DNA of 64,000 nucleotides from Pseudothermotoga thermarum DSM 5069 (GTDB lineage Bacteria; Thermotogota; Thermotogae; Thermotogales; DSM-5069): contig NC_015707.1 in the NCBI RefSeq assembly GCF_000217815.1, forward strand, positions 1,910,014 to 1,974,013, in the 5' to 3' direction. Under the pieces are notes generated by a model. The model made no database searches and was not told the DNA's origin. It saw nothing but the letters and a program-made list of their open reading frames with translations. A program made the position numbers and the translations under genes. This document shows, piece after piece, positions 51,800 to 55,952 of this stretch (its first letter is position 1; each line of letters starts with the position of its first letter).

Positions 51800-51803
51800 G
51801 AAA

Positions 51804-51838
51804 ACGGGGTGAGAAAAAGCTCACCCCGTTTTTATTTT
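51804..51838 (+). terminator. Terminator after rplT
   Basis: ACGGGGTGAG/CTCACCCCGT (51804-51813 with 51820-51829), A-rich loop, T-rich tail. Confidence 0.92.
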
Positions 51839-51913
51839 TCATTTTCACCTCTTGACAAACTATGGGTGTTTATGATATCCTCACTAAAAAGTAAACTCAT
51901 GGGGGTTACGAAT

Positions 51914-52018
51914 TTGGGAAAGTTTTTCATGTTGGTTAATACAGCTACATTCTCTTACGCCTATTGGTTTAGGGGAACGCCCTCTTCCGGGATTCCCCTA
52001 AGATTTACTGCCAACTAG
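51914..52018 (+). CDS. Aromatic-amino-acid leader peptide
   Basis: 34-codon ORF, TTG 51914, eight bases after GGGGG (51901-51905), ending TAG 52016. Codons 13-19 read Phe-Ser-Tyr-Ala-Tyr-Trp-Phe (51950-51970). Five of seven are aromatic, in front of the P2 hairpin of the attenuator, and the operon encodes a Trp/Tyr-type uptake system. The resemblance to trpL and pheL logic is strong. Alternative starts are ATG 51899 (poor site) or ATG 51929. It has not to my knowledge been described in Thermotogota. Confidence 0.65.
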   Translation: MGKFFMLVNTATFSYAYWFRGTPSSGIPLRFTAN

Positions 52019-52046
52019 GCGTAGGGGAATCCAAAAATAAAAGGAA

Positions 52047-52079
52047 GAGGGCATCCAAAAAAGGATGCCCTCTTTTTTT
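52047..52079 (+). terminator. Attenuator terminator of the trpX-type operon
   Basis: GAGGGCATCC/GGATGCCCTC, 10 bp, A6 loop, then TTTTTTT. Its 5' arm is shared with the antiterminator. Confidence 0.92.
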
Positions 52080-52110: not shown

Positions 52111-53085
52111 ATGAAAAAGTTAATTTCCGCCGTGTTAATGTTGATCATCTCGGTATTGGTACTTGGAACAGTTCGTGTTGGGATAACTCAGATCGTCGAT
52201 CATCCTGCCTTGAACGCCGTTTACGATGGGATCATCAAAGCGTTGGAGGATGCTGGTTTCAAAGTTGGAGTAGATGTTATCATCGACAGGCAGAATGCGC
52301 AAGGAAGTATTCAAAACGCTGTAGCAATAGCAAGAAAGTTTGCCGATGAAAAAGTAGATTACGTCGTTGCGATTTCAACACCTTGTGCCCAAGCAGCTGT
52401 TCAAGTTATTACAGATCGACCCGTTGTGTTTTCAGCAGTCACCGATCCGGTTGGCGCCGGCTTGATCAAGCAACTTGGCAAAAACGACTCAAACGTTGTT
52501 GGAATTTCGGATATGGCACCAGTTGCAACACACTTAAAATTAATCAAGATGATCTTTCCGAATGCCAAAAAGGTTGGGGTAATTTACAATCCCGGTGAAG
52601 CAAATTCAGTAACACTTACAAACATTGCAAAAAGTGTTGCACCTTCACTTGGTCTGACGATAATTGATATTCCTGGTACCAGTGCCGCCGAAATGGTAAC
52701 AGCTTTGACCAGCATAGGTCCAAGTGTTGATGTTTTGTACATTGGAACAGATAACACCGCTGCTGCTGGAATACAAGCCATTGGTTCTGCTGCTTTGAGG
52801 TTGAAAAAACCGATAGTTGCCGCGGATATCGACATAGCACGAGGTGGAGGTGTAATTGGGTTTGGGTTTGACTATTTCACAATTGGGGTTGAAACTGGAA
52901 AGCTTTTGGTTCAACTCATCAAAGGTGCAAAACCTCAAGATCTTGAATCTGGTGTTCTTGGTCCTGAATCTTTGCTTCTTTACATCAACCTTGATGTTGC
53001 AAAGCAGCTGGGTGTTGAAATACCAAAGGATCTAATCGACAGAGCAAACATATTGGTTCAAGGTGGGCGTGAGGTGAAAAGATGA
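52111..53085 (+). CDS. trpX: ABC transporter substrate-binding protein, TrpX type
   Basis: 324 residues, signal peptide LISAVLMLIISVLVLG, then VRVGITQIVDHPALNAVYDG, VFSAVTDPVGAGL and VGVIYNPGEANS, all typical of the PF04392 binding-protein family. Relatives in Gram-positives import tryptophan or tyrosine. The leader with Tyr/Trp codons agrees, but the substrate is inferred. No lipobox Cys is evident near the cleavage site. GGGAGGTG site. Confidence 0.87.
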   Translation: MKKLISAVLMLIISVLVLGTVRVGITQIVDHPALNAVYDGIIKALEDAGFKVGVDVIIDRQNAQGSIQNAVAIARKFADEKVDYVVAISTPCAQAAVQVITDRPVVFSAVTDPVGAGLIKQLGKNDSNVVGISDMAPVATHLKLIKMIFPNAKKVGVIYNPGEANSVTLTNIAKSVAPSLGLTIIDIPGTSAAEMVTALTSIGPSVDVLYIGTDNTAAAGIQAIGSAALRLKKPIVAADIDIARGGGVIGFGFDYFTIGVETGKLLVQLIKGAKPQDLESGVLGPESLLLYINLDVAKQLGVEIPKDLIDRANILVQGGREVKR

Positions 53086-54041
53086 TACCCATTCTTGAAC
53101 AAGGTCTTTTACTTGCTTTGGCCGCCATGGGTGTTTACATATCTTTTCGCCTTGTGGATCTTCCAGATCTTACTCCGGACGGCTCCTACGTTCTTGGAGG
53201 AGCCGTCGCGGTAGTTCTTCTTCACTCCGGCCATGGGTGGGGTTTATCGGTGCTTGCGGCTGCACTTGCCGCCGGTGCAGCCGGTGTAGTTGTCGCCTTC
53301 TTGACGACCAGGTTCAAGATCAATTCTCTTTTGGCTTCCATACTGGTTATGACTGCTCTTTACTCGTTGAGTATCCGTGTTATGAATGCCCCAAACCTTC
53401 CCGTACCAAAGTTTGACACCGGAAAGATTTTTGCTTATGAACAACTTACAGGCGGAACACCTTTGGATGATCTTCTTGGAAATTTTCAGGTTAGTTTTGA
53501 AGGAACGGGTTTAAAAGCCGTCAGAATACCTTTCAACAACCGAGCAGACGGAAAAGATTTGGCTTTGATAGCTCTCATCGTTGCAGTAAGTGCAATTGCT
53601 CTTTGGATTTTTCTGAAAACCGAATTTGGAATGATGCTTCGAGGCTATGGTAAAAACAGATTTGCAGTTAAAGTCCTTGGCGTAAATCCAGATTTGTATG
53701 CTTATGTTGGACTAATTTTGGCGAATGTTTTCGTGGGAATATCTGGGGCTTTGTTTTCGATGTACAGCGGTTTTGCGGATGTCAACATGGGTATAGGCAC
53801 AGTGGTTGTCTGTCTTGCTTCGGTCATACTTGGAGAGATAATTTTTGGAAAGCGTCAACCCATGTATGGTGTATTGTTTCCCATTGTGGGAGCAGTGTTG
53901 TATCAATTTTTGCTTTCTTTGGCGATGAAGTATGGATACAAGATAGGTTTTAAACCAAGCGATATGAAGTTGGTCACAGCAATCTTTGTTGTTTCTGTGA
54001 TAGCCGCAAGGAGGTTCAAAAAAAGCGAGGTGATGGTATGA
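53082..54041 (+). CDS. trpY: ABC transporter permease, TrpY type
   Basis: 319-residue inner-membrane permease, about eight helices. VYISFRLVDLPDLTPDGSYVLG is the typical start (Leu-Pro-Asp-Leu-Thr-Pro-Asp-Gly-Ser), with coupling region RGYGKNRFAVKVLGVNPD. ATG overlaps the trpX stop by four bases. Forms the membrane part with TrpX and TrpZ. Confidence 0.87.
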   Translation: MIPILEQGLLLALAAMGVYISFRLVDLPDLTPDGSYVLGGAVAVVLLHSGHGWGLSVLAAALAAGAAGVVVAFLTTRFKINSLLASILVMTALYSLSIRVMNAPNLPVPKFDTGKIFAYEQLTGGTPLDDLLGNFQVSFEGTGLKAVRIPFNNRADGKDLALIALIVAVSAIALWIFLKTEFGMMLRGYGKNRFAVKVLGVNPDLYAYVGLILANVFVGISGALFSMYSGFADVNMGIGTVVVCLASVILGEIIFGKRQPMYGVLFPIVGAVLYQFLLSLAMKYGYKIGFKPSDMKLVTAIFVVSVIAARRFKKSEVMV

Positions 54042-54787
54042 TCGAACTTGAAAATGTCACAGTGATATACAACAAAGGAACTTTGGATGAAAAGGTTGCT
54101 TTGAGAAACGTCAGTTTAAAGGTAGAACCAGGAGAATTTGTCGTCATAGTTGGTGCAAATGGTGCTGGAAAATCCACTTTGCTTAAGCTCATCGTAGGAG
54201 GTGTGAAACCAACAGAAGGTCGGTGCAAAGTTTTTGGACAGGATGTAAAATCAGAGAAGATATTCAAATGCGCAAGTATAGTTTGTCAGGATCCAGACAT
54301 GGGAGTTTTTCCAAATCTTTCGATAGAAGAAAATCTGATATTGGCTAGCAAGAAAGGCCTAAGAGGGTTGAGCTTTGGAAGGATAGACAAAAAGATTTTA
54401 GAGCTTCTCATCTCCACAAAAATGGGTTTGGAACAAGATTTGAAAAGAAAAGCATCCAAGCTTTCTGGTGGTCAAAAACAAGCCTTAGCAGTTGTAATGG
54501 CAGTGGCGTCCAATCCAAAATTACTTTTGCTGGACGAACACACCGCTGCTTTGGATCCAAAAAGTACCGAAACGGTCATGGAATTGACCGAGAGGATAAA
54601 CAGGGATTTCGGTACCACGATTTTGATGATAACTCACGATATGAGTATAGCGGAACAATATGGTAACACAATCGTTGTCTTGGAAAATGGTAAAATTGTG
54701 GCTAGAATTGATAAGCGTAGAGAAAAAGTTGCTGCTTCTCAGCTGAAAGCAATGATAGGATCGATGCGGATTTCTTTTGCATCTTAG
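54038..54787 (+). CDS. trpZ: ABC transporter ATPase, TrpZ type
   Basis: 249 residues. Walker A GANGAGKST, Q-loop CQDPDMGVFPNLSI, signature LSGGQKQALAVVMA, Walker B LLLLDEHTAALDP (His for Pro in EHTA, seen in this subgroup), His switch ITHDM. ATG overlaps trpY by 4 bases. Energises the transporter. Confidence 0.88.
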   Translation: MIELENVTVIYNKGTLDEKVALRNVSLKVEPGEFVVIVGANGAGKSTLLKLIVGGVKPTEGRCKVFGQDVKSEKIFKCASIVCQDPDMGVFPNLSIEENLILASKKGLRGLSFGRIDKKILELLISTKMGLEQDLKRKASKLSGGQKQALAVVMAVASNPKLLLLDEHTAALDPKSTETVMELTERINRDFGTTILMITHDMSIAEQYGNTIVVLENGKIVARIDKRREKVAASQLKAMIGSMRISFAS

Positions 54788-54803
54788 ACTTAGGGGTGAA
54801 AAA

Positions 54804-55952
54804 GTGGAAAAAGAAGTTTTAAAACAAGCGGCTGAAAAATTTGGTACACCGATATACGTTTACAGTTTACCGAAAATCCTTTCCCAAATCGAACTTGTCA
54901 AGAGTACTTTGGAAGGTGTTAACTATTCTTTAGCCTTTGCGATGAAAGCCAATTTTAACCAAGACCTTTTAAAGTTGTTTCACAGTTTGGGGTTGATGAT
55001 AGATTGCGTTTCTATAGGGGAATACTTGCGTGCTAGAAAAGTGGGATTTTCACCTAGCAAGATAATAGTAAACGGAAACTGCAAAAAGAGAGAGGAACTT
55101 AAACTTTACGTAGATGAAGGTATTTTTTCCATAAACCTCGATTCTTATGAAGAATTGATCAGGTTAGAAGCGCTTGCAAATAAACCTGTGAACGTTTGCA
55201 TAAGGGTTAATCCAGACGTTGATGCCAAAACCGATCCACACATTGCAACAGGTTTGAAAGAGCACCAATTTGGCGTGGATTACGATACAGCGGCAAGGAT
55301 GATTGAAAGAATTTCAAAAAATGGCAACATCAAACTCATTGGACTTCATTGTCACATAGGTTCTCAAATAGTAGAAGTGGAACCTTATGAAGAAGCGTTG
55401 AATTCGTTGAAGGATTTTGTAAGGCAAATGAATTTGAATATACAAGTGTTGAACATAGGTGGTGGCTGGGGTATTGACTACGGTGATGGAAAATCGTTGA
55501 ACTTGAAGGATTACAAAAAAAGAATAGTTCCACTTCTAAAGGATTTTAATGTTAAAATCGTTTTAGAACTTGGACGTTTCATAGTTGGTCCGGCAGGGTA
55601 TTTGGTGGCAAGGGTTGAATACGTGAAAAAAACCAACAGTAAAATCTTTGTCATTGTTGATACCGGTATGACTCACTTAATAAGACCAGCGCTTTACGGT
55701 GCCAAGCATAGGATCATTCCACTGTACGATACCTTAGATCGAGAAGAAACTGTTGCCGATGTGGTTGGTCCTGCTTGTGAAAGTTCCGATGTTATAAGAA
55801 AAACCATAACCCTTCCCTTGCCAAGGGAAGGGGACCTTATAGCAATAGGCGAAACAGGAGCTTACGGTTATGCGATGGCTTCTGATTACAATCTAATTCC
55901 AAAGCCACTTGAGATTATATGGGATGGAAAAATGCTCTTTAGATCTTCTTGA
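54804..55952 (+). CDS. lysA: Diaminopimelate decarboxylase
   Basis: Converts meso-diaminopimelate to lysine, last step of the pathway begun at 1418. 382 aa fold-type III PLP enzyme. PLP Lys in FAMKANFN, HCHIGSQI, GGGWGIDYG phosphate loop, and ACESSDVI with GETGAYG near the end. GTG 54804 after AGGGGTGA is preferred to 54777, which lies within trpZ. It is 16 bases behind trpZ, so may be in the aromatic-controlled operon. Its 3' end overlaps the ybjQ-like gene by 14 bases. Confidence 0.94.
   Translation: MEKEVLKQAAEKFGTPIYVYSLPKILSQIELVKSTLEGVNYSLAFAMKANFNQDLLKLFHSLGLMIDCVSIGEYLRARKVGFSPSKIIVNGNCKKREELKLYVDEGIFSINLDSYEELIRLEALANKPVNVCIRVNPDVDAKTDPHIATGLKEHQFGVDYDTAARMIERISKNGNIKLIGLHCHIGSQIVEVEPYEEALNSLKDFVRQMNLNIQVLNIGGGWGIDYGDGKSLNLKDYKKRIVPLLKDFNVKIVLELGRFIVGPAGYLVARVEYVKKTNSKIFVIVDTGMTHLIRPALYGAKHRIIPLYDTLDREETVADVVGPACESSDVIRKTITLPLPREGDLIAIGETGAYGYAMASDYNLIPKPLEIIWDGKMLFRSS

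Follow-up and report, generated by a model that had tools for sequence, protein, structure and literature searches.

A predicted leader-peptide attenuator before a trpX-like transporter operon of Pseudothermotoga thermarum and its counterparts in the Thermotogota

The enterobacterial trp and pheA attenuators of Yanofsky carry their control codons on strand 1 of a leader RNA with the exclusive pairings 1:2, 2:3 and 3:4. Their stop codon is positioned so that strands 2 and 3 cannot pair while a ribosome terminates there, and an intrinsic terminator precedes the first structural gene. In Actinobacteria, Trp attenuators upstream of trp genes combine alternative hairpins with a leader ORF in which UGG codons are doubled or tripled (PMC1262725), while the uORFC-13-1 motif before aroF in Acholeplasma combines a predicted uORF containing Phe codons with a terminator (PMC8632094). 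Homologous aromatic amino-acid transporters can be controlled differently, since trpXYZ of Streptococcus suis is under T-box control (PMC9382623), which agrees with the statement of a first-pass annotation of the locus described below that Firmicute versions of this operon usually use T-boxes. Specifier codons of T-boxes have been used to predict transporter substrates, and the joint Fusobacteria/Thermotogae row (2 genomes) of the same T-box survey lists 0 T-boxes (PMC2494555). Here we analyzed a window of 64,000 nucleotides from the P. thermarum DSM 5069 genome, this being the whole stretch of DNA under study, in which a trp-type ribosome-mediated transcription attenuator very probably controls the operon trpX-trpY-trpZ-lysA.

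Leader anatomy and predicted switching

All leader elements listed in the first-pass annotation were found base-exact in the sequence. The features of the leader and the operon are as follows.

51852-51881, + strand: sigma-70-type promoter, TTGACA-18 nt-TATCCT, 10/12 consensus matches
51901-51905, + strand: Shine-Dalgarno-like GGGGG run in the sequence, 8 nt 5' of the TTG start
51914-52018, + strand: leader ORF of 34 codons, MGKFFMLVNTATFSYAYWFRGTPSSGIPLRFTAN, with TTG start and TAG stop; frame, aromatic run and stop position conserved
51950-51970, + strand: putative control codons TTC TCT TAC GCC TAT TGG TTT (Phe-Ser-Tyr-Ala-Tyr-Trp-Phe), 5 aromatic codons in 7
51949-52030, + strand: outer hairpin P1 (51949-51963/52016-52030 plus 51964-51968/52010-52014), MFE helices
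51969-52001, + strand: inner hairpin P2 (51969-51977/51993-52001), MFE helix that sequesters the antiterminator arm 51990-52000
51979-52052, + strand: antiterminator, 10 bp + 11 bp, 10/10 and 11/11 pairs, -35.5 kcal/mol
52040-52079, + strand: intrinsic terminator hairpin (52040-52056/52063-52079), 17 bp, 6-nt loop, TTTTTTT end; conserved in all orthologues
52111-53085, + strand: trpX-like substrate-binding protein (PF04392), Pfam 8e-76; NCBIfam TrpX 5.5e-71, below the equivalog cut-off
53082-54041, + strand: permease (PF02653), Pfam family match
54038-54787, + strand: ATP-binding subunit, Pfam profile search
54777-55952, + strand: lysA, diaminopimelate decarboxylase, TIGR01048 4.9e-127

The leader ORF opens with TTG GGA AAG and closes with AAC TAG; ATG codons at 51899 and 51929 are also in frame, with the TTG at 51914 the most likely start. 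The 34-codon frame with five aromatic codons in seven reported by the first-pass annotation was confirmed, and the MFE helices place these codons on the 5' arm of P1, just before P2, as it had described, with the stop codon within the 3' arm of P1. The two-part antiterminator pairs 51979-51988 (GCCCTCTTCC) with 52043-52052 (GGAAGAGGGC) in its 10-bp helix and 51990-52000 (GGATTCCCCTA) with 52022-52032 (TAGGGGAATCC) in its 11-bp helix, all 21 pairs being canonical, and the UAG stop at 52016-52018 lies just 5' of the 3' arm of the latter.

Folding was performed at 37 C, which is not the growth temperature of this thermophile. The MFE structure of the full leader consisted of P1, P2 and the terminator (-80.3 kcal/mol, z = -8.0; 0/200 shuffles as stable), and that of the leader folded only to 52054, where the 3' arm of the terminator is absent, was the antiterminator, so that the proposed exclusion of the terminator by the 10 + 11 bp pairing held. 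The 2:3 duplex of this leader was equaled by 0/300 shuffles. At equilibrium the terminator together with the 11-bp helix (-42.9 kcal/mol) is favored over the full antiterminator (-35.5 kcal/mol), and the switch must therefore depend on the order of transcription, as in known attenuators. In simulated ribosome stalls, with masks ending 13 and 16 nt past each codon, a ribosome on the Tyr codons left the whole antiterminator open, one at Trp left part of it open and one at Phe hardly any.

The locus thus combines the components of a trp-type attenuator: a Shine-Dalgarno-preceded leader ORF 3' of a promoter, for which translation is predicted, a control-codon run matching the operon, an exclusive antiterminator/terminator pair together with a protector hairpin that includes the control codons, and a stop codon between strands 2 and 3. 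We infer that transcription starts near 51888 and that RNA polymerase is trailed by a ribosome translating the leader ORF. When charged Tyr, Trp and Phe tRNAs are present, the ribosome would reach the UAG at 52016, P2 would reform behind it, and its footprint would extend over the 3' antiterminator arm at 52022-52032, allowing the terminator to form. Scarcity of charged Tyr-tRNA or Trp-tRNA would instead stall the ribosome at UAC/UAU/UGG (51956-51967), where it would mask the 5' arms of P1 and P2 and leave 51979-52000 largely free; the 10+11 bp antiterminator could then form ahead of the synthesis of the terminator 3' arm, and polymerase would read through. Because the aromatic codons lie inside the switchable hairpin, the operon should be switched on when these amino acids run short. 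Such a switch would work only if the ribosome closely follows the polymerase, so that the coupling of transcription and translation in a thermophile could be tested directly at this locus.

Since its hairpin is a good intrinsic terminator, the element could also be read as a constitutive terminator between trpX and the upstream gene, with the ORF being incidental. That gene, which we take to be rplT from its position after infC and rpmI and from its sequence, already has a terminator of its own at 51800-51833, followed by the leader promoter at 51852-51881, and aroF and trpE, at other places in the genome, are preceded by the same layout, leaving constitutive termination an extremely unlikely explanation. 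The two further copies are located outside the window.

G000:C1:490300-490430 (L030): aroF attenuator copy, leader ending in KKFFYAYWFRGMPSSGVPLKPVAK
G000:C1:475569-475707 (L091): trpE attenuator copy, leader ending in VVCVNWWWLWGMPSLKGSPKATLIL, with only Trp codons in the run

The leader before aroF, MLKSIIGLIVNQTKKFFYAYWFRGMPSSGVPLKPVAK (FFYAYWF run), is 90% identical to the transporter leader over the shared part, and aroF is absent from the other Pseudothermotoga-family genomes. The copy before trpE and the trp genes has the leader end CVNWWWLWGMPSLKGSPKATLIL (WWWLW). Together with the transporter leader, these copies amount to three attenuators in one genome, Trp-only before trpE and mixed before aroF and the transporter.

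Downstream, lysA overlaps the ATPase gene, and its co-transcription with the transporter is therefore presumed; it also follows the ATPase gene in 4/4 other Pseudothermotoga-family genomes checked. A gene of the lysine pathway would thus close an operon under aromatic control, in an order kept in four other genomes of the family.

Conservation in the Pseudothermotoga family and across the Thermotogota

The leader is present in 9/9 family genomes that have trpX, and all nine orthologues keep the Shine-Dalgarno site (GGGGG or GGAGG at the position equivalent to 51901-51905), the start, an in-frame aromatic run S/A-Y-A-Y-W-W-F and both hairpin systems, with the stop directly before the 3' antiterminator arm in every case. 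A TTGACA-17/18-TATAAT/TATACT-like promoter occupies the same place in 10/10 family leaders. The leader peptides are of the form MKREIFLNQKVAQFSYAYWWFRGMPSSEIPLIPLGT (GTG start read as M) and METVNIVQHGEFAYAYWWFRGRPSSGIPPKPLGT; their N-terminal part is freely variable, yet the frame is kept. Among 11 aligned leaders the F, Y, A and Y codons show synonymous third-base changes only, and the sole indel in the aromatic run is one whole TGG codon. None of the nine orthologues retained the hairpins while losing the frame or the aromatic codons, a pattern that the first-pass annotation had named as contradicting its reading. Of the two signs it had expected from an alignment, the conserved in-frame aromatic run was found in 9/9 leaders but covariation of the stems was not, as the near-invariant paired arms contained 0 double changes. 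With so little variation in the arms, covariation within the family carries no information, and replacement of the arms between clades was used in its place.

For the phylum as a whole, a collection of the PF04392 genes of 103 Thermotogota genomes gave 47 full-length operons, distributed over 40 genomes from 16 genera; counts over these operons refer to genomes, not to independent events. Related leaders were sought with a covariance model and matches below ~40 bits were left out, as these (e.g. L104, L105, L106, L109 and L110) were mostly bare terminators or AT-rich chance matches; the match at L101 was judged spurious, and the leaders of G045 and of two G086 paralogues were placed by hand. 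An aromatic-codon leader ORF upstream of the binding-protein gene and a terminator after this ORF were present in 47/47 operons. As a blind statistic, a Shine-Dalgarno-preceded ORF with at least 4 aromatics in 7 codons was encountered in 39/47 real sequences, 1/47 on the reverse strand and 6.2% of shuffles. Pairing of the region after the codons with the 5' arm of the terminator (2:3) beat at least 297/300 shuffles in 39/47 leaders (median z -4.1), with 8/47 falling below this strictest test, and the region after the codons folded onto the codon region in 41/45 leaders measured. Between clades the antiterminator arms are unrelated in sequence, yet complementary, as in GCCCTCTTCC with GGAAGAGGGC, AACGTCCTTTCT with AGAGAGGACGTT and GACACCCAACTT with AAGTGGGTGTC.

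A strongly stable (z = -8) and conserved fold would also be expected of a ligand- or protein-binding RNA switch containing an untranslated, accidental ORF. Against such a switch, 47 operons retain the reading frame with its Shine-Dalgarno site and start, the aromatic codons and the placement of the stop, changes at the F, Y, A and Y codons of the aligned family leaders are exclusively synonymous, and a conserved aptamer would not show the differences in hairpin sequence seen between clades. No Rfam family reached the gathering score in the window leader, and the T-box covariance model (RF00230) had no match in the window or in the 103 Thermotogota genomes, with control genomes being positive. 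We consider an RNA switch of this kind highly unlikely. The comparative tests, with 47/47 operons carrying the leader and T-boxes detected in none of the 103 genomes, thus support the leader-peptide attenuation that the first-pass annotation had proposed, with read-through as its predicted outcome.

In a second alternative, the leader peptide would itself arrest the ribosome in the manner of TnaC by binding free Trp or Tyr inside it, the effector being the free amino acid and not uncharged tRNA. Arg or Lys often follows the aromatic run (WFRG, YRAK, YWKD), which gives room for a contribution of the peptide, but the peptide after the run is wholly different between clades (PSSGIPL, RNVLSSDSS, KDTQLGAF, TKPSCGFV) and tracks the RNA arms instead of a peptide motif, while the length and identity of the run vary with the gene, as expected of control codons. 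A natural test of the frame is provided by a group that we take to be the Petrotogaceae, in which the RNA element AAAGACACCC...TTTGGTGCC is common to the leaders of trpX and aroF. This element is read as AAA GAC ACC in the trpX leader and as AAG ACA CCC in the aroF leader, with the aromatic codons directly before it, each in its own frame (YFYFWYW and YYYWF). Retention of aromatic codons with the same RNA in different frames argues that RNA structure and coding frame are separately maintained. In the TnaC system a high amino-acid level raises expression, a direction that fits catabolism and not uptake and therefore also counts against TnaC-like arrest, which we regard as very unlikely here compared with attenuation by uncharged tRNA.

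Outside the Thermotogota, matches to leaders before PF04392 genes were scattered (6/72, approximately the chance rate), with one that looks real. This leader, before an Atribacterota PF04392 gene (L168:438-536), has an ORF in which twelve Tyr codons follow one another without interruption (NNYYYYYYYYYYYYPEGVYA), together with a terminator-like hairpin, and is likely a Tyr attenuator in another phylum.

Leader codons and transporter substrate

The run codons of 13 trpE leaders, mostly ending in NWWWHL or TWWWHL, comprised 38 Trp, 1 Tyr and 0 Phe, counts to be taken with care as the trpE scan favored Trp-rich ORFs, and those of 19 aroF leaders comprised 69 Tyr, 20 Phe and 13 Trp. Transporter leaders were mixed; variants with a single aromatic amino acid were FAFAF and FSFF for Phe, YAYY for Tyr and WWW for Trp. 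To judge from these sequences, leader codon content follows gene function, being Trp-rich for trpE and Tyr-rich for aroF. No convincing Trp leader was found in the Thermotoga trpE upstream regions. Five loci of genus g5, presumably Thermotoga (L042, L044, L047, L048 and L051), have a short ORF ending in HNYYYFWFNRGTCP 5' of aroF, with close variants CDYYYFWF and FNKGTCP and overlapping hairpins after the ORF.

Three tandem PF04392 operons, each with its own leader, occur in two related genomes (L098 and L099; G047 C98 and G046 C24), the leaders being of Phe type (FAFAF/FVFAF), Tyr/Phe/Trp type (VYGFWY/VYYFWY) and Tyr type (LYAYY/VYAYY). In another genome (G086) the PF04392 leaders L150, L152 and L157 read NNWWWHL (Trp only), IFSFFRG (Phe only) and FSFYFYYWR.

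The description of the window transporter as Trp/Tyr-type stood as far as the PF04392 family assignment is concerned, but its binding protein belongs to the wider family, missing the NCBIfam TrpX equivalog NF041285 (239 vs 390-bit cut-off), and its specificity residues look Tyr/Phe-like. Its nearest solved relatives are 3lkv (8e-64), 6hni (2e-56) and 3lft (2e-50), whose structures contain bound Phe, Tyr and Trp, respectively (PMC6816091). Two positions reported to set selectivity are Glu263/Tyr279 in CD0873 (Tyr), Ala/Tyr in VC_1101 (Phe) and Ala/Gln in SP1069 (Trp) (PMC6816091). Among the 47 binding proteins the corresponding residues were Asp/Tyr in the window protein and 43 others and Phe/Tyr in three. 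A pure Trp label is therefore doubtful, in agreement with the simulated stalls, and the substrate is uncertain, with the pocket residues suggesting Tyr or Phe at least as much as Trp. Phe at the Glu263 position of CD0873 was present in 3/5 proteins with Tyr-less leaders vs 0/42 others (P = 6e-4 ignoring relatedness, with probably only two independent changes), a suggestive link at the sequence level between a Phe/Tyr pocket and leaders lacking Tyr.

It is conceivable, at slightly less than even odds in our estimation, that leader peptides serve the Thermotogota as general sensors of aromatic amino acids, in the role that T-boxes have in Firmicutes, with the control codons of each paralogue matching its own substrate. 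If so, leader codons would be a readable label of transporter specificity. The attenuator predicts operon membership, including the odd lysA tail, as well as the amino acid carried by each transporter paralogue.

Relation to known attenuators and T-boxes

No prior report of such attenuation in Thermotogota was found in the open-licence papers searched. The mechanism belongs to a classical type, and the novelty, within the scope of that search, lies in its phylum-wide use in Thermotogota on transporters that Firmicutes control by T-boxes and in a codon content that varies with gene and paralogue across the phylum, forming a codon-labelled family. Classical ribosome-mediated attenuation would thereby be extended to a phylum in which no T-boxes were found, as a recurrent control of both uptake and synthesis of aromatic amino acids.

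The window leader resembles the enterobacterial trp and pheA attenuators in its control codons, three exclusive pairings, stop placement and terminator, but its first target is an uptake transporter, its Tyr/Trp/Phe run is mixed, its host is a thermophile of the Thermotogota and the sequences are unrelated. With the T-box of S. suis trpXYZ it has in common a homologous aromatic amino-acid ABC transporter and, as predicted here, transcriptional control by tRNA charging, whereas the T-box reads uncharged tRNA directly, without a leader peptide (PMC9382623), and the window system would use a leader ORF. The uORFC-13-1 motif concerns another phylum and gene, has no known sequence relation to the window leader and was not reported in Thermotogota (PMC8632094). 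The attenuators of Actinobacteria are Trp only and aromatic transporters are not reported among them in the portion of that study cited here (PMC1262725), while the run in the window is mixed and precedes a transporter. Finally, the substrate predictions from T-boxes relied on one specifier codon (PMC2494555) and those for Thermotogota would rely on the codon content of a translated leader, but in both the sensed codon tells the substrate.
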